From a virus, in the IMG/VR virus record IMGVR_UViG_3300032157_000366, positions 1 through 40,025 of that record: a stretch of DNA of 40,025 nucleotides; one strand, 5' to 3'. The notes beneath the pieces are model-generated. The model had not been told where the DNA came from and did no database searches. It was given only the letters and a program-made list of their open reading frames with translations. Both the position numbers and the translations under genes were made by a program. This document shows, one piece after another, positions 7,554 through 28,625 of this stretch; positions within the stretch are counted from its first letter, which is position 1; every line of letters starts with the position of its first letter.

Positions 7554-7596
7554 CAAATATAACTCGTTGCATTTTTAAAAACATCCTGTGGGTTAA
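7554..7596 (-). promoter_or_regulatory. Phage late-type promoter P1 (TTAACCCAC-N26-TATATTTG)
   Basis: On the minus strand GTTAACCCAC (box at 7588-7596) is followed by 26 bases and then TATATTTG at 7554-7561, which fits the Bacteroidota -7 consensus TAnnTTTG. No TTTG occurs at the usual -33 site. The box overlaps the stop codon (7593-7595) of the spike gene. Three more sites in the window share the box and the exact spacing. The ATG of the baseplate gene at 7550 lies three bases past the -7 box. Confidence 0.75.
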
Positions 7597-8168
7597 CTTC
7601 CGTGTTTTACAAGAGGGTTCTCTATTCCAGAGAAATCTCCAGCTGGTTTTCCTGCCATCCCTGCAATTGCCGCGGCCTTCAAAGCTGCCCCTCCATCCCC
7701 AGGAACAGGAGCCCATGTGGTCAAGGCGGTTATGACAGCTTGAAGTTGTGCATTCAGTTTATTGATCTGCGTTTTCAATTCCAAAGTTTTTGTAAGTCCA
7801 CCGAAACCACCATCATTGAACTGAGTCAACCCCTGAGATATTTTCAAGCTGCTTTTCTGTGTCCCATTGAACACAACCATCTCGAGAGAATCCAAATCAC
7901 TGAACAGGGCCACATATCCTGTATTCTTTTGAGACAGCGCAACTATTACAACACTATCAACCTTCGGGATAAGTAGAAGACCGTCGTTCGGTTCTGCTTT
8001 GAGCGAAACGGAAGGAATTTTTGCAGTACTGTTTCCGCTTACAGGAGTGCAATCGCACGTTTGAGAGGTTGTGTCTACCGAGTCCACGGTACATACCACA
8101 AAGCTCAACCCATCACTCTGAAAAGTTTTAGCTAGTTTTTGAATTGCCTCTGATATTACTCTATTCAT
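7593..8168 (-). CDS. Baseplate spike protein, gpV/Mu gp45-like
   Basis: 191 residues. The N-terminal part (about 15-95) has the OB-fold-like beta pattern of phage spike proteins (FVVCTVDSVDTTSQTCDCTP, then PSVSLKAEPNDGLLLIPKVD, DSVVIVALSQKNTGYVALFS). The region after it (KLNAQLQAVITALTTW) is a helix typical of this family. It ends in a short Gly/Ala-rich C-terminal segment (FSGIENPLVKHGS) also common to phage spike proteins of this kind. The protein would form the trimeric membrane-piercing tip below the hub. The start overlaps the hub gene stop by a few bases, consistent with coupled translation. Confidence 0.75.
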   Translation of the reverse strand: MNRVISEAIQKLAKTFQSDGLSFVVCTVDSVDTTSQTCDCTPVSGNSTAKIPSVSLKAEPNDGLLLIPKVDSVVIVALSQKNTGYVALFSDLDSLEMVVFNGTQKSSLKISQGLTQFNDGGFGGLTKTLELKTQINKLNAQLQAVITALTTWAPVPGDGGAALKAAAIAGMAGKPAGDFSGIENPLVKHGS

Positions 8169-9388
8169 AGTCCTGCTTGAATTTCTGCCTCAGTTAATTT
8201 ATCCAGGCGTATATCGATTGTGATCTCCTGCCTGAGTCCGTTGGAAAAAGAAAACGAACGAGCCACACTCTTCACCAGGTACGTTCCCTCCCTGTCAGGT
8301 AGGATGTTGTCCCTAAAAATAACTGCATCCCCATGATGAACCACAGGCAACCCGAACGTTACGAATGTCCCAACATACCCTTCGTAGTACATCCTGTTCA
8401 AACGTTGTCCGGCCAGCTTGACCAACTCATCCACTGTTTTAACATTCCAGAAGTAAAGTGTTCTTATCTCCCCCGTTGATTCTTTGTCAATTCCAGAATC
8501 AATTTGAGTGTGCATAAGCTTACCGCCTCTGAAAGTGACAAACACTTCCAGTCTTTTCCTTCTGCGTTTTCTATGGCCGTAAGAATTCACATCGTTCAGC
8601 TCCTCGGAATTTACGGAGTACGCTTTTATCCCGAGTTGGATGTCGTCCTTTCTTCTGTACTCGAGCTTATCAGAGATTATGTTTTCATGAAAGTCGAAAA
8701 TATGCTCCTTCCTGTCAGACGGATAATAGACTATACCCGAAACACGAAGTTCATTTCCGCGGAAGTAAGACTCCAGCATGTAGTCGTCCCGGAGACGCTT
8801 TAAGACCTGAGCCACGGTTTCGTTATGAGTTCTAAAATCTCCAATATTCGTTTTGATGTCGGTCGCCACTGAAACTCCTGTCACGACCGTAAAGGGAGTG
8901 CCAGAGATCAGCTCCGCAACCATTTCTCCAACCTCGGCATTCGGGAACACCTTATTTGGACATTGTATCTGTTTTAGCAAATACATATTGTCCTCGAATT
9001 CTATTTCAATAGGCATTCTGTTTATGACCTTTGTAACGAATCCTTCGAATACCTTCACAAGATCAGTAACTTCATTCTGTAGGTTGTCAAAATACATGTA
9101 TCCGGTGGAGATGGTTATTTTATCTCCCCTTAAAAGAATCGGAGGCGTATTGTCTCCACCTATTAAATTCTTTCCTTCCCAGGAATATTTCTTTCCGCTC
9201 TCATCAACGAAATAAATGTTCTTTGGGAAAACCATCTTCCCGGTATCAGTTAGATTATCCCAGCTCTCCGTATTACCGTAGGATGTCATAAATTTGAAAG
9301 AGAAAGTTTTCTTTCTGTCCGGGAACGTAGTGTTCGGCTGCTGCTCTATAAGAGTTGAGCAAATGAAACGCAACCCGGTTACCTTCAT
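8165..9388 (-). CDS. Baseplate hub protein, gpD/Mu gp44-like
   Basis: 407 residues. Its size, position directly before the spike gene, and sequence pattern (FEGFVTKVINRMPIEIEFED, then MVAELISGTPFTVVTG, VAQVLKRLRDDYMLESYFRG, and near the C-terminus HHGDAVIFRDNILPDREGTY) match late-control D/gp44-type hub proteins, which form the ring joining tail tube and spike. A very basic stretch (YGHRKRRRKRLEVF, about residue 270) is unusual. The upstream gene overlaps its start by four bases, so it is part of a tightly packed tail operon. Confidence 0.75.
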   Translation of the reverse strand: MKVTGLRFICSTLIEQQPNTTFPDRKKTFSFKFMTSYGNTESWDNLTDTGKMVFPKNIYFVDESGKKYSWEGKNLIGGDNTPPILLRGDKITISTGYMYFDNLQNEVTDLVKVFEGFVTKVINRMPIEIEFEDNMYLLKQIQCPNKVFPNAEVGEMVAELISGTPFTVVTGVSVATDIKTNIGDFRTHNETVAQVLKRLRDDYMLESYFRGNELRVSGIVYYPSDRKEHIFDFHENIISDKLEYRRKDDIQLGIKAYSVNSEELNDVNSYGHRKRRRKRLEVFVTFRGGKLMHTQIDSGIDKESTGEIRTLYFWNVKTVDELVKLAGQRLNRMYYEGYVGTFVTFGLPVVHHGDAVIFRDNILPDREGTYLVKSVARSFSFSNGLRQEITIDIRLDKLTEAEIQAGL

Positions 9389-10011
9389 TGTGAGATTTTT
9401 AATTCAACAGGAAGATCACTCAAAGCATTTATATCAAAAAGCTGGGAGGAATAAAAACCCTCACGCTGAGGATGACTTACATTTTCGATTACGATAGTAT
9501 CAATATCGAACAGTTGTAGCCACCAAGATGTGACTTTGATAGGAACAGGAGCTTTGCAAATTTTCTGCATGGCTATAACGTCGTCAACTGGGAATACTCC
9601 GTTGTCTCCCATGAATGCAGCTTTTATGTTTATCATTGAATCTCCATCCGAAATATATTCCTTCACCGTCCCCTTCCTACCAGATATTTGCGTCTTAACA
9701 ATATTTTTAGAATCGTTTACTGTCATTATCACGGTGTCTATTGTAAGGGAGGGATATTCGTAAGTGACGCCGTTCTGAGTATACGAGCCCGCTTGTATCT
9801 CTAGATTTGTGTAGATGGGGGTTCCCAGCTTTGATATGGCTATTACTCTATCCTTTTCAATTCCTGCGGGGGCTTTCCCTTCGTACGGGTTATTACTTGA
9901 CTGCTTGAGTGGATGAGTCGCCACATTAATAGCTGCCGCATACGCTCCTATCTTAACATATTTAAGAGAGAAGGCTCGGGAGAGAACTTCCTGCTGAGAT
10001 AGATTTAACAT
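9385..10011 (-). CDS. Tail protein between tape measure and hub (DUF6046-like)
   Basis: 208 residues, beta-rich. The order tape measure, this gene, hub is the position of the DNA-circulation or tail-adaptor protein (Mu gp43/P2 gpU type) in contractile phages. From memory the pattern resembles a Bacteroidota phage family labelled DUF6046 (EGKAPAGIEKDRVIAISKLG, GRKGTVKEYISDGDSMINIK), with GRKGTVKEYI as the most recognisable part. Function is probably a tail tube/hub junction component. It overlaps the hub start by four bases. The family name is recalled and was not checked. Confidence 0.6.
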   Translation of the reverse strand: MLNLSQQEVLSRAFSLKYVKIGAYAAAINVATHPLKQSSNNPYEGKAPAGIEKDRVIAISKLGTPIYTNLEIQAGSYTQNGVTYEYPSLTIDTVIMTVNDSKNIVKTQISGRKGTVKEYISDGDSMINIKAAFMGDNGVFPVDDVIAMQKICKAPVPIKVTSWWLQLFDIDTIVIENVSHPQREGFYSSQLFDINALSDLPVELKISQ

Positions 10012-10012
10012 A

Positions 10013-11584
10013 TTATGTTCCTGCGATTATCTGAGAATCATTTACCGCCTCAAGCAATGCTTTCGTAACCGCCTCCTTTATTTTAGATGCACTTTCCTCG
10101 AGGTTTGTAGTCGATATAGTAAACTTTTCGATGATGTTTCCTATTGTGATGTTTATAGTAGTGGCTTTCGTCCCTGAGACTTTACTTGTTCCGGCATCGA
10201 ATGAATCATTTCCGGATAATGAATTTCCTTTAGCTCCAAGAACAGAAGCAACAGGAGAAAGTATTTTCGTTGTTAAACCTAAAGCCGTCATTCGTCTTTT
10301 CGCTTCCCTTCCTTCTCCAAATGCTTGCTCGAATTTTGAATCCGCTCTTATTTTTATATCAGCAAGACTTTCATTCATGTGAAGGAATCCCTCACGCATA
10401 AAAGTGATTGCATAAATAATATTATCAACCCTGTCTTTTGTAAATTGCAACATTCTTCCAAGCATACTTTTTTCTCCGAAGGACTGCTCCAAATTACTTC
10501 CTGTTATATCCATGCCAAATAAATATTTAACAGAATCTATAACCATGTCAACTCCTTCTTTGAAGGATTCTGAATTTTGGTACGCTAAATAAAATGCTGC
10601 TCCAAGAGCGGCTATTCCGGCCACCATAAGCCATACAGGATTTGCCATTAGTGTCACCATTAGCTTAGACATTGCTCCAATTAAATCGTATGTGGCAATT
10701 CTCCAGACAACAAATGCAGCTGCGGCCAGCCCAACACCGAAAGCAATCGCCTTGAAAATCTCCCTATTGTCCTTCACGAATTTTATAAATCCCTGAAACA
10801 TCTCAATCAGTCTCTGGAATGATTTAATGAACGCATTTATAGCAGGTTGAAAAATCTTGAATATTGAATTCGCACTCTGAGTCAGCATGTCTTTTGTATT
10901 TGACCATTGGCCCCCAGTAGTCTTTGCCAATTCCTCGGTGAGGTTGTTAAACTTCCCTCCGGCCCCCGTCATGTTCTCGAAAGCTTTTTGTATCTGCGGG
11001 AATCCGACTTTCCCGTCCTCAATGTACTTCTGCAACGCAGCCCCCGTCTTCCCGGTAACTTTTGCTAACTCTTCGTATATCGGGATACCTCTATTCGCAA
11101 ACTGCCGTATATCTACGGTCATGGCCTTACCCTGGGTCTTTATCGTTCCGTACAGGTATGCGATCTCTCCCACTGGCTGCGATATTCCGGCAGATACATC
11201 GCCAAGTTTTCTAAGCGTAGGAATAATATCCTTTGCCGCGAAGCCATAAGCGAGTAACTGCTTTCCTGCTGTCTGTACTTCTGTTTGGCTGAAAGGAGTT
11301 GTTTGAGCAAACTTCACCATCTGACCGATAAGAGCATCGGCTTCTTTCTTACTCCCGAGCATTGTCTTCATCGATACATTCAGCGACTCCATATTAGTAC
11401 CCGCATTAAATACCTCCTTCGCCAGGAACCCAAATCCATATCCGGCAGTCAATCCAACAATACTATTCCTAACAGAGGAAAGGGTACGCTCAAAACTTTG
11501 AGTATTTTTCTCAGCATTTCCGATCATTCGACTGAACAAGTCTTTGAGGGAAATCTCGTATTCTACCTTATTATTGTCCGGCAT
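10013..11584 (-). CDS. Tail tape measure protein
   Basis: 523 residues. The N-terminal about 250 residues carry the tape-measure signature (MVKFAQTTPFSQTEVQTAGK, then LRKLGDVSAGISQPVGEIAY, FANRGIPIYEELAKVTGK, GKVGFPQIQKAFENMTG). Two hydrophobic stretches follow (FGVGLAAAAFVVWRIATY and LMVAGIAALGAAFYLAYQ, about 285-340), as expected for the region entering the host membrane. The C-terminal region is helical and Thr/Ala-rich. At the usual 0.15 nm per residue the length implies a tail of roughly 80 nm, short for a contractile phage. It begins 1 base after the stop of the frameshifted chaperone, a textbook arrangement. Confidence 0.9.
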   Translation of the reverse strand: MPDNNKVEYEISLKDLFSRMIGNAEKNTQSFERTLSSVRNSIVGLTAGYGFGFLAKEVFNAGTNMESLNVSMKTMLGSKKEADALIGQMVKFAQTTPFSQTEVQTAGKQLLAYGFAAKDIIPTLRKLGDVSAGISQPVGEIAYLYGTIKTQGKAMTVDIRQFANRGIPIYEELAKVTGKTGAALQKYIEDGKVGFPQIQKAFENMTGAGGKFNNLTEELAKTTGGQWSNTKDMLTQSANSIFKIFQPAINAFIKSFQRLIEMFQGFIKFVKDNREIFKAIAFGVGLAAAAFVVWRIATYDLIGAMSKLMVTLMANPVWLMVAGIAALGAAFYLAYQNSESFKEGVDMVIDSVKYLFGMDITGSNLEQSFGEKSMLGRMLQFTKDRVDNIIYAITFMREGFLHMNESLADIKIRADSKFEQAFGEGREAKRRMTALGLTTKILSPVASVLGAKGNSLSGNDSFDAGTSKVSGTKATTINITIGNIIEKFTISTTNLEESASKIKEAVTKALLEAVNDSQIIAGT

Positions 11585-11585
11585 A

Positions 11586-12106
11586 CTATTTTTGTTCTAT
11601 CAGGTTCATTTTCTTGCTGTAGTATATGAACTCGCCATATTTCTTAAACAATTCATCGTCGCTCAACTGGTCAGCATTACAACGGAAAAAGCAGCTGACT
11701 AACGCAATTACTTTCGTTAGTTCGCTGCTCTCCTCAGTAATTGCGTACTGCTCTAATTTTTTTTTAGAACGTCGGTGTAGAATTTGAACACGCGTTGAAC
11801 TTCCAAAAGAGCACTCATGAATATTTGGTCGTCCTCGGGCAAACCACTCATTATCCTGGAAGAACTTTCCGGCTCTATGATGCAGGCTTTAAGGAGCATT
11901 TCACAGCTTCCTGTTAAGGACTGCATTATCATGTCCATTGCCCTCATTTTCAAAAGACGCTCCGGGTCTCTCAGGTATGCCACCACCTGCTCATCTCCTT
12001 CTACGACGAACGCAAAGGCGTAGACTTTTCTTTTTAATTTTTCTTCTAACGATTTACGGGTTTCTTCGATTTGATCGTCAGTGAGGTGAGAATTTTTTTT
12101 AGCCAT
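11586..12106 (-). CDS. Tail assembly chaperone, long form made by -1 frameshift (G-T type)
   Basis: Reading the upstream chaperone frame to the A9 run at 11757-11765 and then slipping back one base continues as KLEQYAITEESSELTKVIA and so on for 57 codons, ending at a TAG at 11586-11588, just before the tape measure ATG at 11584. The extension is open, protein-like and fills the gap exactly. In lambda and many other tailed phages the G/GT pair lies directly upstream of the tape measure and is made by a -1 programmed frameshift; GT binds the tape measure during tail assembly. The slip would be on A AAA AAA. Expected full length is about 173 residues. The shift itself is inferred from layout. 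Confidence 0.8.
11753..12106 (-). CDS. Tail assembly chaperone, short form (G type)
   Basis: 117 residues ending ...TDVLKKN with a TAG immediately after the A9 slippery run. The protein is acidic/helical, starts with a basic MAKKNSHLTDDQIEETRKS, and has a central region (LRDPERLLKMRAMDMIMQ and GSCEMLLKACIIEPESSS) typical of the gp41/gpG/phage tail chaperone families that carry a RDP-type loop. It sits between tube and tape measure, the fixed position for this protein. The short form is predicted to be the main product, with a minority frameshifting into the longer form. Confidence 0.8.
   Translation of the reverse strand: MAKKNSHLTDDQIEETRKSLEEKLKRKVYAFAFVVEGDEQVVAYLRDPERLLKMRAMDMIMQSLTGSCEMLLKACIIEPESSSRIMSGLPEDDQIFMSALLEVQRVFKFYTDVLKKN
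11757..11765 (-). promoter_or_regulatory. A9 slippery site for -1 ribosomal frameshift
   Basis: Nine consecutive A residues on the coding strand (T9 on the plus strand), just before the TAG that ends the short chaperone form. In the zero frame the codons are CTA AAA AAA AAT TAG, giving the canonical A AAA AAA heptamer. The -1 frame beyond it is open for 57 codons and stops 1 base from the tape measure start. I did not identify a downstream pseudoknot by eye. Confidence 0.7.
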
Positions 12107-12123
12107 AAATATTTTTGATAAAA

Positions 12124-12537
12124 TTATCGCTCGATGCTTCCTATGATAAGAGGAATCTTTACGGTGATCTTTGTGTCACCCTGCTTTGAAGCAAGCGGGT
12201 TCTCTAGGAATTCAACCGCTCGCAGTATGTCCTTTTCTGGGGTTACATTTAACCCGCCAAAAACCACTTCGATATTAAAAGGAGGAATTGCTTTAGGGTC
12301 ACGACCTGGAGCGGCGGCAATGATTCGCTTCCACTCATCAGTATATAGCTCGATAGAACCTTCCGGCTCTACGTTCCCATAACCACGGGATACAGGTTGA
12401 TTGCCCGCACCGTAGTTGTTCTCCTTGATCTGCTTGTCATTGTAATCAATTGCAACTATCCCGACGACAGGAACACCGAACAACATTACTGTTATGTTTC
12501 CCCATGCGTAGTTTACTCCGTTGATTAATGGTGTCAT
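12124..12537 (-). CDS. Tail tube protein (Mu gp40-like)
   Basis: 137 residues, directly between sheath and tail assembly chaperone, which is the fixed place of the tube gene in contractile phages. The sequence is beta-rich with features of the Mu/P2 tube group: GVNYAWGNITVMLFGVPVVG at the start, a loop with YGAGNQPVSRGYGNVEPEGS, and strands IELYTDEWKRII and KITVKIPLIIGSIER. It would polymerise into hexameric rings around the tape measure. Spacing to the sheath is 13 bases. No membrane or signal segments. Confidence 0.75.
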   Translation of the reverse strand: MTPLINGVNYAWGNITVMLFGVPVVGIVAIDYNDKQIKENNYGAGNQPVSRGYGNVEPEGSIELYTDEWKRIIAAAPGRDPKAIPPFNIEVVFGGLNVTPEKDILRAVEFLENPLASKQGDTKITVKIPLIIGSIER

Positions 12538-12550
12538 TTGTCTTTTTTAT

Positions 12551-14080
12551 TTAGAGAGAAAACCCTACAGTTATTTCGATGGTATTGGCCACTCCTATGA
12601 TGTGGAGATTGGCTGTCATTACAACCTTTGACGTGGATGCAACATTCTGATTTGTAGGGATGACTATATCGTCAGCCTCTACGACCGAAAGCTCCCCATC
12701 CCGAGCCATTTGTTCCAGTGGATTTCTCGCTTTAGATGCAAGCGTCTGAATGGTTGTATCTTGCATCGTTCCATCGGAGTTCAAGGTCAAAGGAGAGTTG
12801 AGATCAGGAAGAATGACAGTTCGAATATTCCTTCCCGCCTTATCAGCTGTCCGCCCATTTTCTATTTTGCTGTAATCATCCGTGGGAGATACGGCGGTAT
12901 GAGAATCGTTGAAGTAGCTGTTCGAAAGTCCTACAAACTTTCTCAGGAAAATATATTTGTATGTATTGAGCTGAGAAATAAGTCCGTCTGAGCTTGTGTC
13001 GAACGCTGTTCCGTTTGCGAAACCGATCTGATCGTATTCAACTCCATCGGAAAGAGGAAACTTTCCAACCCACGCAACAGACTCACTTACTTTTGCCAGA
13101 GATACCGCCCCCAGGAGTGTTCCGAGACATGTAACGCTTTTGCTGTACGCTTTGAACAATTCATATCCGAAACCACGCTGATCTTGACCAATAGCAACAC
13201 TCACGCGGTTCGCTGATAGGGCCGAAAGGTCTGCCAACGTAGAAAGATCGCTCACGGCCGATATATCGCTACCCAGTATTATGTTTGCTGGCTTATGAGC
13301 TGCGAACATGATCGCGTACTGTGCTTGAGCAGCTGTAACGTGAGCCGAAGTGTATGCGGTATTATTTATATACACTCCGAACTGGCGAATCTTCCCTTGA
13401 GCATAATCTTGAACTGTTTTCACTTCTGCAAAGTCATACGTAGAAGGAACAGCGTAGAAAGCCAGGTATAGTTTACCTTGAGGCTGTATGCGAAAAAACT
13501 CACTCACATGATACCAGTAAAGAGCTTTCAAAGAAGCGACCCCGGCAACTACGCTCTGGGTCAACGTTCCTGCAATCGTAGAACCTGCGATGGTCTTTGT
13601 GTATGGGGTTCCTGTGTTAGGAAATACTCCGAGCCCTGGTCTTGCAGTGATCGTAACCGTATCAGTTGAAGACGTTGCGGTAAATTTATGAGTGGCAGTG
13701 CCAGCGTTAATCATATTCTTGATCGCCGTGGCCACCAGTGTAGCGGTTGAGTCACTTGCAACTTTCGTATAAGTTCCCAGATCAACTACAGTTCCCTTCG
13801 GGTCTGTGAAAGTCAGCTTCAATGTGTCGCCCGTAGTTCCTGCGGTGGTGATCTGCAAGGTTGCAGTTCCTTTTGTTTCGTCCGAAAAGTCCTTTACAAC
13901 ACCCAACGCCTCAGCCTCCGGAGTTGAATAAATAACCTTAATCCTGTCAGAAGAAGTGAAACCGGAAGGAAGAACTCCATTAGCGCAATGAAATATCAAA
14001 GAGGAGATGTGATCTTCGCCCGGCAGAGGTCTTCCAAGACCTCCATTTCCTTGAATAATCTTTACATCGTTTAAAGCCAT
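12551..14080 (-). CDS. Tail sheath protein (DUF2586-like) with an inserted domain
   Basis: 509 residues. The N-terminus (MALNDVKIIQGNGGLGRP) and the central and C-terminal parts (KLYLAFYAVPSTYDFAEVKT, HKPANIILGSDISAVSDLST, SVAIGQDQRGFGYELFKAYS, SESVAWVGKFPLSDGVEY, YIFLRKFVGLSNSYFNDSHT) fit Mu-like sheath proteins. Between residues about 70 and 170 lies an extra Thr/Ala/Ser-rich beta region (DLGTYTKVASDSTATLVATA, then TDTVTITARPGLGVFPNTG) that looks like a surface-exposed insertion. The sheath contracts to drive the tube into the cell. It precedes the tube gene by 13 bases. Confidence 0.8.
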   Translation of the reverse strand: MALNDVKIIQGNGGLGRPLPGEDHISSLIFHCANGVLPSGFTSSDRIKVIYSTPEAEALGVVKDFSDETKGTATLQITTAGTTGDTLKLTFTDPKGTVVDLGTYTKVASDSTATLVATAIKNMINAGTATHKFTATSSTDTVTITARPGLGVFPNTGTPYTKTIAGSTIAGTLTQSVVAGVASLKALYWYHVSEFFRIQPQGKLYLAFYAVPSTYDFAEVKTVQDYAQGKIRQFGVYINNTAYTSAHVTAAQAQYAIMFAAHKPANIILGSDISAVSDLSTLADLSALSANRVSVAIGQDQRGFGYELFKAYSKSVTCLGTLLGAVSLAKVSESVAWVGKFPLSDGVEYDQIGFANGTAFDTSSDGLISQLNTYKYIFLRKFVGLSNSYFNDSHTAVSPTDDYSKIENGRTADKAGRNIRTVILPDLNSPLTLNSDGTMQDTTIQTLASKARNPLEQMARDGELSVVEADDIVIPTNQNVASTSKVVMTANLHIIGVANTIEITVGFSL

Positions 14081-14087
14081 TTTGATA

Positions 14088-14252: not shown

Positions 14253-14254
14253 CT

Positions 14255-15097
14255 TTAACCTATTCTCGTTAGGACTGCTGCGGAAGTTGTCAGGAACGTT
14301 AGCCTGAATACAGCGGCCCCAACAGTTGCACTTCCGGTTCTTGTGAGAGTATTGGTTCCAGGGAAATCAGAAGCCACGATGCCAGAACCGACAGCAACCG
14401 TAACAGTTCCGTTCGATGCGCCGTTGTTTACAACGACGAATTCAAATGTCGTCCCGGCAGTTGCCCCGGTTTGAGTTACAATCTGAGCAGCAGTTGGCAG
14501 TGTGAAGGTTGTGGTAGTTGTAGACGTTGCTGCAACAAGTAAGCCTCCAGCTAACTCAGCGGCAGTAACGGTGATCGAACCGGTTGCAGTGTATGTCGTA
14601 GCAGTTCTTAATTGAAATGTTTGCTTTGAAAAAGTAATTCCACTACCAGATGTTTGCTCTGTTATAGAAGCTGCCGTGATAGCACCTGCACTTCTGCGGG
14701 AAGTTTCTTGCCACGCTGACCCATTGAAGGTAAACTCAACGGTGGCATAAGTGCTCGCTGCAACCACAAGGGTTCCGCTTGCACTAAATCCTGTACTGAA
14801 AGTCACTGTTCGCGCTGTACCGTCAGCGTTAAAAATAACAGTCATCTTGTCCCCTGTATACGTCTTGGTCAATATCGAAGTCATTGTAAGCGCACCAGTC
14901 AACTGACCTATTCTGTAGGTAGTTTGTTCGCTGAAAGGAGTTACCGCAATAGAGGCAGCGTAAGAAATTGACTTGATCTCTTTATATGTGGTCGCATACT
15001 TGTTAGTGCCTCCTGGAACTACGCTGTAACGATACCCGAGCTGAGCGTTTGACAGCGTGCTCAGAAAGATCAGGGAAAGGAAAAGTATTTTTTTCAT
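14255..15097 (-). CDS. Signal-peptide virion-associated protein, beta-rich (head decoration candidate)
   Basis: 280 residues with a signal peptide (MKKILFLSLIFLSTLSNAQ) then a Thr/Ala/Ser-rich beta protein. Residues about 85-135 (MTVIFNADGTARTVTFSTGF, then VEFTFNGSAWQETSRR) resemble the mature part of the neighbour at 15139-15561 (CHIEFTADGTTRLMTLTG ... VSFYYNGTKWVQYNR), so the two probably share a domain. The C-terminal half has TTTTTFTLPTAAQI and repeated VTVAVGSGIVASDF-like strands. Such proteins between capsid and sheath often decorate the head. The signal peptide is unexpected for that role. Function is inferred from position only. Confidence 0.55.
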   Translation of the reverse strand: MKKILFLSLIFLSTLSNAQLGYRYSVVPGGTNKYATTYKEIKSISYAASIAVTPFSEQTTYRIGQLTGALTMTSILTKTYTGDKMTVIFNADGTARTVTFSTGFSASGTLVVAASTYATVEFTFNGSAWQETSRRSAGAITAASITEQTSGSGITFSKQTFQLRTATTYTATGSITVTAAELAGGLLVAATSTTTTTFTLPTAAQIVTQTGATAGTTFEFVVVNNGASNGTVTVAVGSGIVASDFPGTNTLTRTGSATVGAAVFRLTFLTTSAAVLTRIG

Positions 15098-15138
15098 TCT
15101 TAGTTATATTTATATGACAAACCCGATCTGAGATTTTT

Positions 15139-15561
15139 TTAGTGCTGCTGGTATCTGTTGTACTGAACCCATTTTGTACCGTTGTAATAGAATGAGACCC
15201 ACGACTTCCGAGAAGACATTACAGAGATTGTATCCCGGTTAATATCTGAAAGCATGGCAGTCCCCGTAAGAGTCATCAGCCTGGTTGTACCATCAGCGGT
15301 AAACTCAATGTGACACCTGTCCCATGTTTTTGCGTAAGTACTTCGTATATGAATGGTCTTTGCCCCGGCCACCGCAACCTTGTAAAAGGATTCAAAAGCA
15401 TCTGGAGCAATTGAATCAGTGCTTCCGAGAGATGGCGACGCTGTTTTATACACAAGAACACCTCCAGTGTTGTCTCTGTTTGGGGTTGTCCCGAATCGCT
15501 GCGCCGATGCATTCAAGGTGAAAGCCAGTCCGATTATGAATAGGGAAAGTAAATTTTTCAT
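15139..15561 (-). CDS. Signal-peptide protein related to its downstream neighbour (head decoration candidate)
   Basis: 140 residues with a clear signal peptide (MKNLLSLFIIGLAFTLNASAQ). The mature portion has a beta pattern ending in WVSFYYNGTKWVQYNRYQQH, similar in layout to residues 85-135 of the 280-residue protein that follows (FADGT core, then an F/Y-NG-x-W motif). This suggests a duplicated domain. It lies between a small protein beside the capsid gene and that 280-residue protein. A head or neck accessory role is inferred. The export signal needs explanation. Confidence 0.5.
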   Translation of the reverse strand: MKNLLSLFIIGLAFTLNASAQRFGTTPNRDNTGGVLVYKTASPSLGSTDSIAPDAFESFYKVAVAGAKTIHIRSTYAKTWDRCHIEFTADGTTRLMTLTGTAMLSDINRDTISVMSSRKSWVSFYYNGTKWVQYNRYQQH

Positions 15562-15608
15562 TCTTATTTTTATTAGTTGTTTTTTTTGTTGACTGACTCT
15601 TTTTTTTA

Positions 15609-15797: not shown

Positions 15798-15837
15798 GAT
15801 ATTTTTATTGTGTTTTATGTATAATTTTCGATTTAAA

Positions 15838-16960: not shown

Positions 16961-18073
16961 TTATTTTTTGGCTTTAGCTTTCTCGTTTATCTCCGCCATA
17001 GCTACAGCCATATTGTAGTGAGAAGCTCCTTCAACTTTTCCAACCTCGATCTTTTCGGCTTTCTTATTCATTGGTATTGATTTCAAGAGAGCCTCTGTTC
17101 CTGCGAAGTCGGATTCTGCTTTTGCTTCCCATGCTTCAATGGACTCCTTTTTGTTTTCCACTTTTCCGTCTTTCACGGCAGCTTTGATAAGCTCCACGCC
17201 TTTTACTTTCGCTTCCGCTTTAAGAGCGTTTTCTTTTTCCGTTTTAACCGTTGCCAACTCTGCTTTAACAGAATCCAGCTCGGTCTTTACGGCTGTAATC
17301 TCTCCCTCCTTTTTAGTTACCTCAGATTTGAGGTTTGTGATTTCAGTATTTTTTGCTTCAACAGAAGCCTGAATGCTTTTAACTTCCGCAGCAATTGCCT
17401 TTTCACTTGCTGCTTCACTTAGGTTTAGGAGGGCGGTAACTTCTGACATTTGTATGGATTTAGGTTGATGTGCTGAGGCGATTATGTTTTTTATTTTTTC
17501 AAAATTTGCTTCCGCGTTGTCTGTCTTTTTCAATCGTGGGATATTCAGATCGTAAGTGTTTTCGATGACTGTACATATTCCCATTTCTTTTGCTTCATCC
17601 GAGGTAAACCATGTTTCCTCATTCATCATCTGGGAAACCTTGCCATCGTCCAAACCAGTCCTCGATACTATCGTCTTTCTGAGGCTTTCAGTAATCGGGC
17701 TGAGTTCCTTATCTGCTCCTCCGGCCGGATTGTGAATCATTCCTATCGAGTAATCTGACCAGTACCTAGTTCTGCCCATCAGGTATATACTCATTGCCAT
17801 GCTCGCACAGATTCCCACATTGTATGTATCAACGATTGTCTTTGTCTTGAGTATCGCTGAACAAATGCTATATCCGGCGTATACTTCTCCTCCAATTGAG
17901 TTGATGTGGATTCTGATTCTTTTCTTTCCCAGCGTGTCTAAGAACAGTAGCTCTTCCTGAAATTTCGCGCAATCAACTCCGTTTCCGTCTTTGTCTTTAC
18001 CAATCCTGCCGTTAATCAGCATTATCGGCTCAGAGTCTCTTACATCTACCACATAGCAAAGCGTGCGTTCCAT
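16961..18073 (-). CDS. Prohead protease (ClpP type) fused to scaffold
   Basis: 370 residues. Residues about 1-175 form a ClpP/S14-type protease: substrate strand KRIRIHINSIGGEVYAGYSI, nucleophile Ser91 in GICASMAMSIYLMG, catalytic His114 in GMIHNPAGG, and a region ending DEAKEMGICTVI that probably supplies the Asp. Residues about 215-370 are long coiled coils rich in Glu, Lys, Ala and Val (KSEVTKKEGEITAVKTELDS) typical of a scaffold. A Met at about residue 209 (ATG at 17449) could start a separate scaffold form as in lambda C/Nu3, but it lacks an obvious ribosome site. It starts 13 bases past the -7 box of the upstream promoter, so the leader is very short. Confidence 0.85.
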   Translation of the reverse strand: MERTLCYVVDVRDSEPIMLINGRIGKDKDGNGVDCAKFQEELLFLDTLGKKRIRIHINSIGGEVYAGYSICSAILKTKTIVDTYNVGICASMAMSIYLMGRTRYWSDYSIGMIHNPAGGADKELSPITESLRKTIVSRTGLDDGKVSQMMNEETWFTSDEAKEMGICTVIENTYDLNIPRLKKTDNAEANFEKIKNIIASAHQPKSIQMSEVTALLNLSEAASEKAIAAEVKSIQASVEAKNTEITNLKSEVTKKEGEITAVKTELDSVKAELATVKTEKENALKAEAKVKGVELIKAAVKDGKVENKKESIEAWEAKAESDFAGTEALLKSIPMNKKAEKIEVGKVEGASHYNMAVAMAEINEKAKAKK

Positions 18074-18086: not shown

Positions 18087-18129
18087 CAAAATTAAATCTT
18101 GGAGAAGAGAAAAACTATCTGTGGGTTAA
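18087..18129 (-). promoter_or_regulatory. Phage late-type promoter P3 (TTAACCCAC-N26-TAATTTTG)
   Basis: On the minus strand ATTAACCCAC (box at 18121-18129) is followed by 26 bases and TAATTTTG at 18087-18094. The box, spacing and -7 element are shared with three other sites. It sits 13 bases before the ATG of the prohead protease. The box abuts a plus-strand -7 candidate, so the region may be a two-way promoter. Confidence 0.75.
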
Positions 18130-18161: not shown

Positions 18162-18200
18162 ATGTCGAATGAATCACCCACACAACAACTCACTAAATAA
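18162..18200 (+). other. Possible 12-codon leader peptide frame
   Basis: ATG two bases downstream of the TACTTTTG box opens a frame coding MSNESPTQQLTK followed by TAA. If transcription begins near this ATG the frame would be leaderless. It might be a leader peptide, a small active peptide, or chance. Nothing but position and ATG placement supports it. Confidence 0.25.
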
Positions 18201-18255: not shown

Positions 18256-18315
18256 ATGATTACATGGGAAACGAGCAGCAGCGACATCCGAGGAAATGCC
18301 ACGAAAGGAAATTGA
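18256..18315 (+). other. Possible 19-codon upstream frame coupled to the next gene
   Basis: ATG at 18256 opens MITWETSSSDIRGNATKGN and its TGA (18313-18315) overlaps the ATG of the next frame by one base in a TGATG arrangement. Such overlaps support coupled translation. The sequence itself is not recognisable. Confidence 0.3.
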
Positions 18316-18509
18316 TGACCTACCCCAAAGAATTGTACTTTGGAATGTTTGTGGCAGATTGTTTTACAAACTATGAGGGTAAAAGCGAGAAACTTAAAAA
18401 CATTCTAAAGTCCTACTACGACAGACTCCCAGAGCCTGACAGACAGAGACTCCTAACAATATACAGGAGCATGACCCCTAAACAGATCAGTGACCCGGTA
18501 GGGTGGTGA
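18315..18509 (+). CDS. Lone plus-strand small gene (moron candidate)
   Basis: 64 residues from ATG at 18315 (MTYPKELYFGMFVADCFTNY ...). The frame also stays open to ATG 18264 (81 residues, basic N-terminus MGNEQQRHPRKCHERKL), but ATG 18315 has an AGGA-like sequence six bases upstream and a TGATG overlap with the short frame before it. The protein is helical and charged (EKLKNILKSYYDRL and PEPDRQRLLTIYRSMTPKQ), suggesting a small soluble helical regulator. It is the only convincing plus-strand gene and its stop abuts, without overlapping, the convergent gene ending at 18510. Separate promoter, opposite strand and small size fit a moron. No family recognised. Confidence 0.6.
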   Translation: MTYPKELYFGMFVADCFTNYEGKSEKLKNILKSYYDRLPEPDRQRLLTIYRSMTPKQISDPVGW

Positions 18510-21095: not shown

Positions 21096-21097
21096 TG

Positions 21098-21622: not shown

Positions 21623-21626
21623 TGGT

Positions 21627-22082: not shown

Positions 22083-22084
22083 TG

Positions 22085-22462: not shown

Positions 22463-22471
22463 AATGTAAAA

Positions 22472-22657
22472 TTAATTCATTCCGATTTTTAAAACACTGA
22501 TTGCACTAACAATCGTTTCGCGTTGTCCAGGAGTAATGTTTTCGGTTATAACGAGATAAAATTGATCGAAAGGGAAAGGGGTTATTCCCTCCATTCTCAT
22601 ATCCAGCCTCTCTTTACTGGTAATCTCTATCTTCTGTACTGACAATGAGCTATTCAT
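22472..22657 (-). CDS. Small hypothetical protein downstream of MuF protein
   Basis: 61 residues; the start overlaps the end of the MuF-type gene by a few bases, which supports coupled translation. The sequence (MNSSLSVQKIEITSKERLDM then RMEGITPFPFDQFYLVITEN) is mixed with a short C-terminal amphipathic stretch. No family recognised. Probably a head-completion accessory by position. Confidence 0.45.
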   Translation of the reverse strand: MNSSLSVQKIEITSKERLDMRMEGITPFPFDQFYLVITENITPGQRETIVSAISVLKIGMN

Positions 22658-23453: not shown

Positions 23454-24789
23454 CTTTGTGCTCTCCGTATATTTTGGCCAGCTTGTTACTTATGCTTTCT
23501 GGCAAATTCGGCTTTGTGGGTGGCTCTGGAAGCGGCGTGTCTTCAATGTCTATCCCCGTTTGTTCCTTTACCCACTCAGTAGGTACGGTCTTGCCCGCTT
23601 GACTGAATATGAGGCATATATCGGCTACCTTTTTGTTGAAGTCTGCGGTTTTGTTCTTTATCTCCTCACGCTCTTCGTCGTTCTTTATCTTCCATTTGCA
23701 GAACTCAGGTATGGGGAATCCAAGATTTCTGAGCTTGGGAAGTAGATAGTTGTTTACAATGTACTCGGCGAATGTCTTGTCTGAGCTCTGTTTTGCCTTC
23801 AATGCTTTCTCCACCGGATTGTCATCACCTTGCGATGAACCGATCTTTCCCGGCACGCTGTCCATTGCGTCAGCATGGCCGAGAATGATCTTTGAAATCT
23901 TCGCCTCACACCTCTTCTCGAGGTTGGCGTAAGTTTGCCACCCGCTACCACTCTTCGAGGATTCAACGAATTCAATTTCGTCGTCCTTGTCGAGAATTCC
24001 ATAACCAGAAGAACCGAGCTGCTGGAGTGCTTCCTCCAGAAAATCTCTTTCCTTGTCATCCTTGTCCGTTTTTCCAACTCTCAGCGGCATACCATACACT
24101 TCGGCGAAAGTTGTGTTGAATCCTAGTATATTCCTGAGAATGATCTCATAGTTGGCCACACTGTACAGGTAGCCGAATCCGCACTTGCTTGATGCTGCCT
24201 CCGATGGAGTCGGAACCCACAAAGTCCAGTCTGACAGAGGCTTTTCAAGAAAGTTCCACCCGGACGGCATGTAAGGGAAAGACCCGACATAACAATTATC
24301 CGGACTTATATTCTCTCTCTTCACAAGCTGCACGTTTTCAAAGTCTCCGTTAACGATGTCTCCAAAGTTCAACAGAGTGTACCCGTATGCTTGTGCGTCC
24401 AAGATGTAGTTAAGTATGTCGTGAAACCAACGTTTGTCTTTAAGGAAAATAGTTGCATCTTCAATTGGATTGTCTTTGTCGTCCACAATCTCGAACTCTT
24501 TCAATAGCGTCAAGTCCTTCCTCTTCTGCATGCACGCGCCCACATGACCGTTCAGCCTTGTGTCTTGAAGCATTCGCATTACTTTAACTCGGAAGGGATA
24601 ATAAGGCTGCTCACATTCATCAATAGCTTGCCTCCACATGGAGGTATCGTGCTTCAATCGCGTGAGCTGGAAAGGAACAACGTAGCGATTCGTATTGACG
24701 CTCTTTTTAGTCCCGGCAATTTCTTTACCTGGAGCTTCTGTCTTTGCCCAGAGACCGAATCCTGTTAATGGGTTTCCTGTGAATGGCAT
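23446..24789 (-). CDS. Portal protein, DUF935/Mu gp29-like
   Basis: 447 residues. Features of the Mu gp29 family: AQAYGYTLLNFGDIVNGDFE region, MPLRVGKTDKDDKERDFLEE, ALQQLGSSGYGILDKDDEIE, FVESSKSGSGWQTYANLEKR, KISKIILGHADAMDSVPGK, and SSQGDDNPVEKALKAKQSSD. This is the dodecameric ring through which DNA is packaged and ejected. It follows the CBM-containing 338-residue gene and precedes the MuF gene, matching Mu-like order. Length is near the family norm. Confidence 0.85.
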   Translation of the reverse strand: MPFTGNPLTGFGLWAKTEAPGKEIAGTKKSVNTNRYVVPFQLTRLKHDTSMWRQAIDECEQPYYPFRVKVMRMLQDTRLNGHVGACMQKRKDLTLLKEFEIVDDKDNPIEDATIFLKDKRWFHDILNYILDAQAYGYTLLNFGDIVNGDFENVQLVKRENISPDNCYVGSFPYMPSGWNFLEKPLSDWTLWVPTPSEAASSKCGFGYLYSVANYEIILRNILGFNTTFAEVYGMPLRVGKTDKDDKERDFLEEALQQLGSSGYGILDKDDEIEFVESSKSGSGWQTYANLEKRCEAKISKIILGHADAMDSVPGKIGSSQGDDNPVEKALKAKQSSDKTFAEYIVNNYLLPKLRNLGFPIPEFCKWKIKNDEEREEIKNKTADFNKKVADICLIFSQAGKTVPTEWVKEQTGIDIEDTPLPEPPTKPNLPESISNKLAKIYGEHKDG

Positions 24790-25806
24790 TTAGTAGCTGT
24801 TAGTATTTTTCACTTCCGAGCCGAATCTTATTCTGCGTCCTTGAGCTGGCTGGCGATCTACAAGTGTCGCGGCGGTGATTGTTCCTTTGCGTATTCCATT
24901 GAGCCACTTTATTGCTGAGTCATATCGCTCGCAACGAAGAGGAGGAATGTTCCGGGGGCTGATACGCGAATGTAGGTGATATAAAGTTATATCCACCATA
25001 TTAGTGACCATGAGCTGAGATCGGTTGTCCCCATAAGTCCAGGCCACTCTCCTCCACTTTAGTATGTCGGAGTCAGGTGCTACGTTCTGGCTTCCGGTTA
25101 CCGATTCCCATATAGAACCGAGATAGTTCACTCGGTTATCTGCAACGTACACCGTGCTGGAATTATACGCTGCATAATCTGTGTTGATTGCAGTGGTGTA
25201 CAGGTTCTTTACCGAATACGCTGCCCCCTTCTTCCATTGAAAATGCCCCAACGTTGCATCTGGGAAAACATTTGAGAAAGGAACCCTGTATGTCTGCTCG
25301 AATTGTAGTGCTTGCTGGTGATCTATAACACCTGTGTCTGTAAGTGCTTCATAAATGTAATCATTCCAAAACACTTTATCCCCTCTGACATATACGGCCT
25401 TTACGTTGAACTCGTCGTATGGAAGAGCAATACAGTAAATGTCATACTGCGCCCCGAGTAGCTTCCATTTTGCAGCGTCGAATGATTCCCCTGCTATGAT
25501 CGCTGTTGTGCAGATATACACGTTTCCACTCTGAACCGCCATCGCTTTGAGCGCATACGTTGCAGTGTTAGAGTAAGCTGTAGCGTCAAGCTCTACACGA
25601 TACCGAGCCTTGTATGTGGTGTCCATTGAAAAAGTTCCCATGCCTAGGAACTCTTTGGCAACGTCGTATCGTTTGGTCAAGTACCCTGTTATATCCTCCT
25701 GCGATGTGAGCTCACAAGACACACGGAGAGAAGAGTCGGAACCAATTACCTGAGTAAGTTGATCGGCCTGAATTTGTTTGAGGTAATCTCTGTATCGGAG
25801 GTACAT
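24790..25806 (-). CDS. Unknown protein with repeated CBM-like modules, between tRNA and portal
   Basis: 338 residues. It contains two to three copies of a small aromatic module: AYSNTATYALKAMAVQSGNV (then YICTTAIIAGESFDAAKWK), a shorter one near VKAVYVRGDKVFWNDYIYEA, and AAYNSSTVYVADNRVNYLGS (then IWESVTGSQNVAPDSDILKW). This pattern occurs in carbohydrate-binding and receptor-binding proteins. The N-terminal residues MYLRYRDYLKQIQADQLTQV are helical, and a C-terminal basic stretch (DRQPAQGRRIRFGSEV) follows. A protein of this kind just before the portal is not standard. It may be a head fibre, an adaptor, or a neck decoration. Confidence 0.55.
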   Translation of the reverse strand: MYLRYRDYLKQIQADQLTQVIGSDSSLRVSCELTSQEDITGYLTKRYDVAKEFLGMGTFSMDTTYKARYRVELDATAYSNTATYALKAMAVQSGNVYICTTAIIAGESFDAAKWKLLGAQYDIYCIALPYDEFNVKAVYVRGDKVFWNDYIYEALTDTGVIDHQQALQFEQTYRVPFSNVFPDATLGHFQWKKGAAYSVKNLYTTAINTDYAAYNSSTVYVADNRVNYLGSIWESVTGSQNVAPDSDILKWRRVAWTYGDNRSQLMVTNMVDITLYHLHSRISPRNIPPLRCERYDSAIKWLNGIRKGTITAATLVDRQPAQGRRIRFGSEVKNTNSY

Positions 25807-25816
25807 GATTGTTTTT

Positions 25817-25892
25817 TGGTTGCGGGAGCTGGATTCGAACCAGCGATGTCCAGATTATGAGTCTGGCGATTTAACCTCTAATCTACCCCGCG
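25817..25892 (-). tRNA. tRNA-Met (CAT), initiator-like features
   Basis: The minus strand folds into a complete 76-base cloverleaf with CCA encoded at 25817-25819. The acceptor 5' strand is CGCGGGG; the 3' strand is TCCCGCA. The D stem is GATT/AATC, the anticodon stem CCAGA/TCTGG, the loop CTCATAA (anticodon CAT), and the T arm GCTGG TTCGAAT CCAGC. Base 1 is C and base 72 is A, an unpaired C1-A72 that marks bacterial initiator tRNA, and pair 11-24 is A-T as in E. coli tRNA-fMet. The three G-C pairs expected in the anticodon stem of an initiator are absent. Alternatives: elongator Met, or Ile2 if lysidine is added. Confidence 0.85.
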
Positions 25893-25895
25893 ACA

Positions 25896-25938
25896 CAAAT
25901 TTAACTCTGTTAGGAGGAAAGAAAAGGACGTGGGTTAA
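25896..25938 (-). promoter_or_regulatory. Phage late-type promoter P2 (TTAACCCAC-N26-TAAATTTG)
   Basis: GTTAACCCAC (box at 25930-25938, just after the terminase stop) then 26 bases, then TAAATTTG at 25896-25903. Three bases (TGT) separate the -7 box from the first base of the tRNA at 25892, the same gap as to the ATG at 7550 in P1. Transcription would therefore start at or near the mature tRNA 5' end, or drive the head genes beyond it. Confidence 0.75.
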
Positions 25939-25940
25939 CT

Positions 25941-27413
25941 TTAATACGAATGCTTGTGGACATTCTTCCCGGTTCTGATCTTAACCGACCTGTGACCTAA
26001 TTGGAATTCACTATACTCTCGGGAGAATGCAGAACAAAGGAAGTACCTGGACAAATCTATGAAGTGGCCGTATGGCTGGTACGCTACTCTAGTAACAGGG
26101 TCGGTGACGGTCTTCTTATCAATCTTTCCGTTTTTATCTTCCTTTGTGTTCTCATAATCTACAATAGCGGGCCTGCACTTTTTGTTAACCCTGAACTTGA
26201 GACCTATGTCCTCCTCCAGTATGGAGTTGAAGAAAGACATAGAAGTAAGTACAGAGGGATTTGATTTGTCTACCTTCCTTCGAACAACGTACCCGGCTGC
26301 TTTGAGTTCTATTTCAATGAGCCTGAACAGGTCGTGCCCCTTCTCCTGCTTAACGTCTTCCTTGTCGCTCGTAGCATCACCGTAGATGCAGATGGGAAAT
26401 GATTTGTCGTATCCCCATGCCATCAGCTTTCTTACGATCTCCCGGCACATTGATTTGACGGTATTGTCTGGGTTCTTCATTGCAAGGCAATCTACCAGAG
26501 TAACGTCAGTTTGATTGTCATCTACCTGGAAGAAACCACAAGGGAAGTACGGGTTTACGTTCTCATCGAATGAAAGATGCAGCGGAAGTTTAGGATTATA
26601 CCCATCTTCTGTGATATGATGCTCGCTTCTCCACTTTTTCAGTATCTCTCCACCGAAAACAGTCTTGCCCCATTCGCCCAGCACGTTCACCTTGTATGAA
26701 TTGTAATTCTTCGCCCTCAGTGCTTCATACGTGTCGATCAGGTTCTGATCTCTGAACCCATACTTACCATCAGGAGAACCAACTATCCAAAAGTTATCGT
26801 GATAAGTTGTCTTTATGAGTACTACCTTACCACACGTAGATATTCTGACGAAAGAGTTTTCAGAAGGCAGCTTCCATTTCGTGTCCTTGAATGTGTACTT
26901 ATCAACAAGATCTGTTTTAACCCAGCTGTTTTCATCAACTGGATTCCACGAAGCAAATATCTTCTGCCCAGCAATACCACGGAGCGCAAGGTCGAACTGT
27001 TCAAACTCTCCAGGGAGGAAGTGATTAAGCTCGTCGAGATATAGGTATTTGTACGATTCTATCCCTTTTGCCTTCTCTTCATCGTCCAGCCCCTTCATAA
27101 CAATCTCCGCATCGTTGGTTTTGAAAATGAAATCGAGCTTTATGAATGCCGGGTCGAGATACATTTTCTTCATTGCCAGCTCGAAAGACTTCTTGAGCGT
27201 AGTCTTTATGATCGTCGACTCCTTACGAAAGGATATTGAAGAGTGTTTGTGGACAACCGCCTCCTTTGAGAATTGCTGGCACACCGTAACGGTCTTTGAA
27301 GAGCTCTTGCCTCCGTAGATCAGAACTATCCGGATGGATGTGTCTCGAATAACATCATTGAGAATGAAGTAAAGGGGATTGAACCACTTCTTTGAGAATC
27401 TGACCGACCCCAT
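25941..27413 (-). CDS. terL: Terminase large subunit
   Basis: 490 residues. An ATPase Walker A-like loop lies at about 34-41 (GGKSSSKT), a Walker B at about 125-130 (YLYLDELNHF), and further ATPase elements in FASWNPVDENSWVKTDLVDK. The nuclease half starts around residue 240 (YKVNVLGEWGKTVFGGEIL) with an acidic CIYGDATSDKEDVKQEKG segment that probably supplies metal ligands. It drives DNA packaging into the prohead. It follows the small subunit with no gap and is followed by P2 and the tRNA. The shape fits the PBSX/Mu-type terminase families. Family assignment is by motif pattern. Confidence 0.88.
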   Translation of the reverse strand: MGSVRFSKKWFNPLYFILNDVIRDTSIRIVLIYGGKSSSKTVTVCQQFSKEAVVHKHSSISFRKESTIIKTTLKKSFELAMKKMYLDPAFIKLDFIFKTNDAEIVMKGLDDEEKAKGIESYKYLYLDELNHFLPGEFEQFDLALRGIAGQKIFASWNPVDENSWVKTDLVDKYTFKDTKWKLPSENSFVRISTCGKVVLIKTTYHDNFWIVGSPDGKYGFRDQNLIDTYEALRAKNYNSYKVNVLGEWGKTVFGGEILKKWRSEHHITEDGYNPKLPLHLSFDENVNPYFPCGFFQVDDNQTDVTLVDCLAMKNPDNTVKSMCREIVRKLMAWGYDKSFPICIYGDATSDKEDVKQEKGHDLFRLIEIELKAAGYVVRRKVDKSNPSVLTSMSFFNSILEEDIGLKFRVNKKCRPAIVDYENTKEDKNGKIDKKTVTDPVTRVAYQPYGHFIDLSRYFLCSAFSREYSEFQLGHRSVKIRTGKNVHKHSY

Positions 27414-27812
27414 TTATTCCTCATATTTCTCCTCGGCTAAATCCTTTCCGAGTTTGGTGACTTGTATGTGTACCTTGTCGGTAATACGCGCTCTGAGCTT
27501 GTTGTACTCTCGTATTGCGGCCATCTTTGCTCCCAGGTCGCTGTTTTGGGTGATTGTTAAGAGTAGCTGCTTATCCACAAACTGATCGTTCAACCCCTCA
27601 GTATCAAGCAAGGAGTTTATTTGCTTCAAAATGTCAACATTGGTCAACAGGCGATGAGCACACGTACGAGCCGAATGGTAAGCCCCGCTCTTCTTGATGT
27701 CAATACCATAAGCCTCTACGTATGCAGCCACTCCGTTACCAAAGAACTCCTCGGTTACGTAGAGCTGGCAGAATCTAAGTTGCTTAGGGTTAAGCTCATT
27801 TTTGGTTTCCAT
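27414..27812 (-). CDS. terS: Terminase small subunit
   Basis: 132 residues with the Terminase_2-type pattern: NPKQLRFCQLYVTEEFFGNG, VAAYVEAYGIDIKKSGAYHS, ARTCAHRLLTNVDILKQINS, and a C-terminal helical part (AAIREYNKLRARITDKVHIQ). It binds DNA at the packaging site and delivers it to the large subunit, whose gene starts the next base after the stop. The upstream 71-residue gene overlaps its first 58 bases. Confidence 0.85.
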   Translation of the reverse strand: METKNELNPKQLRFCQLYVTEEFFGNGVAAYVEAYGIDIKKSGAYHSARTCAHRLLTNVDILKQINSLLDTEGLNDQFVDKQLLLTITQNSDLGAKMAAIREYNKLRARITDKVHIQVTKLGKDLAEEKYEE

Positions 27813-27970
27813 TGGATGTAATATAACTCTGCGTCTGTAAAGGATTTTCTTATCTCAAAATCAAAAGGATTAAATGTTTCATCGCACTTTATGATTGCTG
27901 TCAATAATTCAGTAACTGAGAATCTTCCATCTACCAGAAAATCATTTGGATTAAACAGTGATGATTTCAT
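27755..27970 (-). CDS. Small acidic hypothetical protein upstream of terminase
   Basis: 71 residues overlapping the terminase small-subunit start by 58 bases in another frame, and joined to the upstream gene by an ATGA overlap at its start. Sequence: MKSSLFNPNDFLVDGRFSVT, then amphipathic with EIRKSFTDAELYYIQWK. The strong coupling at the start supports translation. No family recognised. A regulator or packaging accessory is possible by position. Confidence 0.4.
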   Translation of the reverse strand: MKSSLFNPNDFLVDGRFSVTELLTAIIKCDETFNPFDFEIRKSFTDAELYYIQWKPKMSLTLSNLDSASST

Positions 27971-28221
27971 TTCTTGGGTTTGAATAGTGCCTTACTGAAA
28001 GAGCCGACTGTTATTTTTCTGCGGGCTCTTCGTATTTCCTTTCCACTTCTCTCGGCCCCGTTGGGGTGTTTGGTCAATACGATCTCCGTGATCTTTGGAG
28101 CAGGTGGTTCCGGAGTATGAATAAGGATTGTTTTTGTACCACAATCATGCGGGTACATCCTCTCTATTTCGGGATAAATTACCACTCCGCATTTATGGCA
28201 CGTTGTATAGCTCGAACTCAT
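27967..28221 (-). CDS. Zinc-ribbon-like small protein
   Basis: 84 residues with an N-terminal C-x2-C (TTCHKCGVVIYPEIERMYP) and a third Cys with a His (HDCGTKTILIH), suggesting a small metal-binding knuckle. A basic C-terminus (KEIRRARRKITVGSFSKALF) suits nucleic-acid binding. The start is joined by ATGA overlap to the 36-residue gene upstream. It could be a transcription or packaging accessory; it is in the first operon after P4. No direct evidence of function. Confidence 0.5.
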   Translation of the reverse strand: MSSSYTTCHKCGVVIYPEIERMYPHDCGTKTILIHTPEPPAPKITEIVLTKHPNGAERSGKEIRRARRKITVGSFSKALFKPKK

Positions 28222-28328
28222 AATGTTGTTCCCCAGAATAATGATTCCATTTGCCTTACGTACTCCAGGTGGCTTCTAATCACCGAGCGCAAGACAAACT
28301 CCTCTATTGTTATGTATTCAATTCTCAT
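28218..28328 (-). CDS. Very small coupled protein (36 residues)
   Basis: ATG at 28328 overlaps the end of the upstream gene by 11 bases, and the TGA at 28218-28220 overlaps the start of the next gene in an ATGA arrangement. The product starts MRIEYITIEEFVLRSVIRSH and ends in LFWGTTL: an amphipathic helix-like peptide with an aromatic end. The gapless packing on both sides supports real translation despite its size. Function unknown. Confidence 0.5.
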   Translation of the reverse strand: MRIEYITIEEFVLRSVIRSHLEYVRQMESLFWGTTL

Positions 28329-28542
28329 TTTTTGGTTTGAACCTTTTCAGGAACGCGTTTACCTGGCCGATGCTTTCAGCCCATTCGACGGGTGCGACTG
28401 GCTGGCCGTTCTTTTCTCTTTCCCGGAGATGCTCGAGGGTTCCCAGTATGTCAAGTGATTTTCTCAAATCCTGCTCTGCTATGTCGAGGGCGTTCATCAT
28501 TGCGATTGCTGACTGGGCTTTGCCGCGGTTCGCCAGAGGCAT
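28318..28542 (-). CDS. Small helical hypothetical protein, first gene after P4
   Basis: 74 residues from ATG 28542 (MPLANRGKAQSAIAMMNALD); the frame also reaches a GTG at 28578 four bases after the -7 box, which would add 12 residues and make an almost leaderless message. The product is mostly helical (IAEQDLRKSLDILGTLEHLR) with a C-terminal KRFKPKNEN. It is followed by coupled small genes and terminase. No family is recognised; a packaging or regulatory helper is an inference from position. Confidence 0.5.
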   Translation of the reverse strand: MPLANRGKAQSAIAMMNALDIAEQDLRKSLDILGTLEHLREREKNGQPVAPVEWAESIGQVNAFLKRFKPKNEN

Positions 28543-28582
28543 TTTTTCCCGGGAGGGAAGTATCCATACATGATTCACAGAA

Positions 28583-28625
28583 CAAAGGAATATATTTTTG
28601 TTTGCATTTTTTGATAGTGGGTTAA
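28583..28625 (-). promoter_or_regulatory. Phage late-type promoter P4 (TTAACCCAC-N26-TTCCTTTG)
   Basis: GTTAACCCAC (box at 28617-28625) then 26 bases, then TTCCTTTG at 28583-28590, a slightly relaxed -7 box. This is the first of the four sites in the reading direction and heads the packaging block. The intervening sequence is A-rich with no -33 TTTG. Confidence 0.7.

Follow-up and report, generated by a model that had tools for sequence, protein, structure and literature searches.

In the P2-type Ogr/Delta system, several late operons are read from promoters that have a host-type -10 element and no -35 element, and a small phage activator is bound upstream; Ogr is a zinc-finger protein, and its site lies near -55. 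In phage Mu, the C protein, a small dimeric helix-turn-helix activator, binds a dyad site just upstream of the missing -35 element at several late promoters. How late genes are switched on in phages of the Bacteroidota, a phylum that is dominant in the gut, in soil and in water, appears to be little described, and no description of a late-control system such as the one proposed below was found in open-licence papers. Here we analyse the window, that is, the whole stretch of 40,025 bases, a linear IMG/VR record that is possibly a fragment. On the basis of sequence comparisons, we propose that late transcription by the host sigma-A polymerase is probably driven by a phage-encoded ribbon-helix-helix (RHH) activator positioned near -43.

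The window carries a myophage gene set that includes sheath, tape measure, baseplate hub, terminase, portal and a ClpP-type head protease. Homologous terminases occur in a Chitinophagaceae MAG, a Taibaiella MAG and Flavobacterium phages, which makes a member of the Bacteroidota the very likely host. The coding sequence of a DNA methyltransferase (Pfam N6_N4_Mtase) is divided between two frames of the minus strand (31496-31747 and 31066-31596); the frame changes in a stretch of ten C/G (31534-31543), through an error in sequencing or else because the tract is phase-variable. At 39571-40025, nineteen 24-bp tandem repeats (96% matching) extend to the contig end and encode VEARENSS-like units at the N-terminus of ORF 39069-40004. 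The presumed early region (28631-40004, minus strand) has no TWnnTTTG on its coding strand, and the early promoter therefore probably lies beyond the contig end.

Four modules of the form TTAACCCAC-N26-TWnnTTTG lie on the minus strand of the window. Site A (28583..28625; box 28617-28625, -7 element TTCCTTTG at 28583-28590) stands at the head of the packaging block, site B (25896..25938; box 25930-25938, -7 element TAAATTTG at 25896-25903) at that of the tRNA and portal block, site C (18087..18129; box 18121-18129, -7 element TAATTTTG at 18087-18094) at that of the protease/capsid block, and site D (7554..7596; box 7588-7596, -7 element TATATTTG at 7554-7561) at that of the baseplate/fibre block. 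These positions, the nine-base box and the 26-base spacing agree letter for letter with those in an earlier note on this DNA, and they are the only exact copies of TTAACCCAC in the window, each of them exactly 26 bp ahead of TWnnTTTG. The same note had recognized a -7 box of the Bacteroidota host type, which is found as TAnnTTTG at three sites, the box TTCCTTTG of site A being off-consensus, and had reported that the -33 TTTG is missing, as it is at all four sites. Its claim that each site heads a different block also holds, and its view of the sites as late promoters is supported. In Monte Carlo simulations (n=300 Markov-1 sequences), the largest 9-mer family at one fixed distance from TWnnTTTG had at most two members, compared with four in the window, and a three-copy family arose in 0 of the 300; a chance origin of the four-site repeat is excluded. 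The window box can be refined to 10 bp, [G/A]TTAACCCAC, and is nearly asymmetric, unlike the dyad boxes of its relatives described below.

In F. johnsoniae, the mapped -7 element extends from T-12 to G-5 (PMC6847099). When this numbering is applied, the 9-mer occupies -47 to -39 at all four late blocks, abutting the -33 region, with the box centre at about -43/-44; the class II-like position suggested earlier is supported. The predicted +1 of site A, 28578, is the G of the GTG of ORF 28318-28578, and that of site D, 7549, lies no more than 1 nt from the ATG at 7550 of ORF 7242-7550. For site B, the predicted +1 (25891) is within 1 nt of the 5' end of its first gene, a tRNA with a CAT anticodon (25817..25892, minus strand), and for site C it is 18082, which leaves a leader of 9 nt to the ATG of the first gene, the ClpP-type head maturation protease (16961..18073, minus strand). 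Among F. johnsoniae transcripts with a probable promoter, 87% have leaders of more than 10 nt (PMC6847099). The placement of predicted starts at start codons and at a tRNA end gives an independent, anatomical indication of a promoter role for the modules, and several transcripts would start at, or 1-2 nt from, the start codon or tRNA end. The tRNA-Met(CAT) at 25817-25892 (minus strand) has an initiator-like C1-A72 mismatch, but the three G-C pairs normally present in an initiator anticodon stem are missing; the gene encodes the CCA end, and the predicted start of site B coincides with the 5' end of the tRNA.

The earlier note had looked to related genomes for the box and its spacing, and this expectation was borne out for the architecture and not for the letters. 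The exact box, with up to one mismatch allowed, is absent from all 50 related records, and exact-pattern scans of IMG/VR gave only single-copy, chance-like matches, whereas the spacing, the -7 element, the genomic position and a diverged box are present. A module private to this phage is thus the wrong description: the exact box is private, but the box diverges while the architecture recurs, and the window's GTTAACCCACA is one of the diverged forms. The related loci were collected by capsid protein; the portal protein as query found no relatives, and a search for an exact 7-mer at a fixed offset in relatives found nothing comparable beyond the window. The position of site C is conserved across relatives, with the boxes TGTAACCTACA, TGTAGCCCACA and TGTGGCGTACA recurring within 100 nt before the protease gene, and the protease upstreams of relatives combine an 11-bp dyad box (about TGTRnnnYACW), a gap of 25-26 bp and a Bacteroidota -7 element without the -33 TTTG. 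EM with a free gap on 47 non-redundant protease upstreams returned this 11-bp dyad box, with a gap of 26 in 21 of them and of 25 in 7. On held-out loci, the frozen model identified the module in 16 of 37 protease upstreams, against 0.27% of shuffles, and among control late genes in 0 of 36 sheath upstreams and 1 of 25 upstreams of another late gene. When a strict pattern was run over 44 relative records, nearly every match lay at the protease position, and the reversed control gave few matches. TTTG is found at -33 in 1 of 23 family promoters, and the distance from the -7 element to the ATG is usually 4-5 nt (mode 4 nt), which would make transcripts from these promoters nearly leaderless.

Divergent clades (L129/G006, G011 and L357) hold the spacing with different boxes. 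Most relatives have the box at the protease only; a second copy of the phage's own box precedes the portal block in L266/L268, G125 and G006, and the L129/G006 box GATAGCATAAA occurs at packaging and post-tRNA positions. The pooled PWM recovered site C best in the window and ranked sites A, B and D low, and for this reason it was rejected as a universal detector; about half of the held-out loci with an RHH gene are unmatched by the pooled model. It is improbable in the extreme that the repeat arose by chance or has no promoter role, given the simulations, the conservation in divergent phages of the strand, the -7 distance and the place just before late start codons, and the lack of the module at the control late genes.

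The comparative evidence points to a candidate regulator that the earlier note did not mention, the 81-aa RHH-like protein of ORF 18264-18509 (plus strand), which is divergent from site C and is the only convincing plus-strand gene in the window. Its candidacy as the activator reading the box comes from the gene cluster on the protease side, an HMM, co-occurrence, box co-variation and an AF2 model. When all proteins from 22 genomes were clustered, a single cluster of small, conserved, non-structural proteins turned up next to the protease, present in 16 genomes with a median length of 68 aa; this ORF is its window member. The family is marked by a basic N-terminal segment, R-x-[VIL]-x-x-Y, and two helices after it; in the AF2 monomer model of the window protein the two helices are of high confidence and the strand region of low confidence. 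PDB fold matches of the window protein are weak and include RHH-type antitoxins. It has no Pfam match; the RHH protein of the relative L218 passes the Pfam RHH_1 gathering score, and the window member is tied to the family by the HMM. Other members score weakly against the CopG, Arc and VapB families and have weak PHROG matches to CopG-like and Arc-like repressors, and the RHH alignment was too divergent for use as a database query.

By HMM, an RHH gene lies beside the protease in 34 of the 50 loci. The module is present in 24 of these 34 and in 1 of the 16 others (Fisher P=3.4e-5), a comparison among phylogenetically non-independent loci made with a PWM trained partly on the same loci; the lone HMM-negative locus with the module carries an RHH gene overlooked by the HMM, and the gene is nearly universal in the held-out set. 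Box distance tracks RHH distance when capsid distance is given (partial Mantel r=0.34, P=0.0004), and shows no such relation to capsid distance when RHH distance is given (r=0.04, P=0.26). Within a phage, the half-sites of the relatives' dyad boxes co-vary (0 of 2000 shuffles).

This co-variation bears on who reads the box. The late activator sites might be read by another phage protein, such as a winged helix or zinc finger of the early region or some other DNA-binding gene product, with the RHH gene a linked neighbour; G006, in which the module is present and no RHH gene was detected, and the Winoviridae, with an HTH-like gene in the same slot, would fit such a reader. In the G006 loci L129/L207, the RHH gene's place is taken by a 188-aa protein (14680-15246) divergent from the protease, and the box module is kept. 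We nevertheless regard another phage reader as quite unlikely, because the box co-varies with the RHH protein beyond capsid phylogeny and no homologue of the early-region candidates could be detected among the related loci that were examined. The two candidates offered in the earlier note are therefore not supported; the supposed zinc finger (35447-35746) resembles PHROGs of the HNH/endonuclease VII type and not Ogr, and the winged helix at 35122-35415 matches phrog_1123. A host transcription factor, also suggested there, would be in keeping with the host-type -7 element; it is a very improbable reader, since the box varies from phage to phage and follows the phage gene. The broader suggestion of a phage-controlled late switch, in contrast, is supported by these comparisons.

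A relative much like the window is L360, whose RHH protein is the closest homologue of the window's (39% identical) among eight records with divergently placed RHH genes. All five copies of its own box, CTAACATA, are on the coding strand, and the sites that they form lie at the terminase end, ahead of the portal block, ahead of the protease and within the baseplate region, an arrangement similar to that of the window. In both, a box sits in the divergent region shared with the RHH gene, and in the window this region, between the RHH gene and site C, also contains an imperfect inverted box copy at 18172-18182. Both features, together with the family's weak similarity to PHROG repressors of the CopG and Arc types, would suit an RHH protein that binds the box and represses, either holding the late promoters off or regulating its own gene until it is removed; late transcription would then begin independently of it, through the polymerase or some other factor. 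The known RHH proteins of phages, such as Arc and Mnt, are mostly repressors. Repression of the late promoters nonetheless seems unlikely to us: the box is upstream of the promoter core and not over it, at a fixed 25-26 bp, a promoter missing its -33 element should be weak unaided, and the order in most relatives is RHH gene, box, protease. What favours activation is thus the missing -33 element and the fact that the box precedes, in most relatives, the protease and not the RHH gene; the divergent arrangement and the inverted copy at 18172-18182 leave room for RHH autoregulation in the window.

We therefore return to the RHH protein as activator. The four sites would be the late promoters of a Bacteroidota myophage, in which the host RNA polymerase with the Bacteroidota sigma-A may recognize the -7 element TAnnTTTG; because there is no -33 element, recognition would need a phage activator on the 9-11 bp box centred near -43/-44. 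Most likely this is the protein of ORF 18264-18509, a dimer of which, placed just upstream of sigma region 4, could bring the polymerase to each of the four morphogenesis blocks after the protein has built up; its binding, its activating role and this timing are what we infer. Across relatives, divergence of the RHH protein goes with divergence of the box, and the spacing, the -7 element and the position remain constant. With slightly less assurance, we lean towards a large family of Bacteroidota phages with RHH late-gene activators, each matched by co-evolution to a 9-11 bp box of its own at a constant distance, 25-26 bp, from the host -7 element; their diversified promoter-regulator pairs would drive leaderless or nearly leaderless late transcripts. 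The analysis provides a testable promoter architecture, a candidate regulator by coordinates and box-regulator co-divergence over dozens of phages; should the RHH protein prove to be the activator, every such phage offers a ready-made regulator-promoter pair for Bacteroidota.

Compared with known phages, the Winoviridae (pippi8-1 and FPSV-S1) and hankyphage p00 share homologous terminase, protease or capsid proteins with the window. No family-type module lies upstream of the protease in either, and they were rejected as users of the same box. The Winoviridae resemble the window in having a small gene divergent from the protease, but that gene is HTH-like and not RHH (about 8691-8950 in L330, pippi8-1, and about 8583-8854 in L331, FPSV-S1), and it may be another kind of regulator at this position; in L330/L331 the intergenic region between this gene and the protease holds a tandem TAAAGAC repeat. 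Compared with the Bacteroidota sigma-A promoter, TTTG / TAnnTTTG (PMC6847099), the -7 element is common to both, and here the place of the -33 TTTG is taken by a box whose end lies 26 bp ahead of that element. A box in fixed position next to a missing -33 element, repeated at several late operons, is the arrangement of an activator-dependent class II phage late promoter, to which the four sites would probably belong. As in P2 Ogr/Delta, there are several late blocks, a host-type core, a missing upstream element and, as proposed here, a small phage activator; however, the candidate is RHH-like and not an Ogr-family zinc finger, the box is centred at about -43/-44 and not at -55, and the host belongs to the Bacteroidota. 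Membership of the Ogr system was rejected on two of these points, the Ogr-family zinc finger and the dyad site centred near -55. Like the RHH regulators Arc, Mnt, CopG and the antitoxins, the candidate is a small protein of dimeric type, predicted to have a basic strand at its N-terminus and then two helices; the known phage members mostly repress, whereas activation of late promoters is proposed here. The working plan of late control would be like that of P2 Ogr or Mu C, although C is a helix-turn-helix protein, of another fold than the RHH-like candidate, and no homology is claimed.
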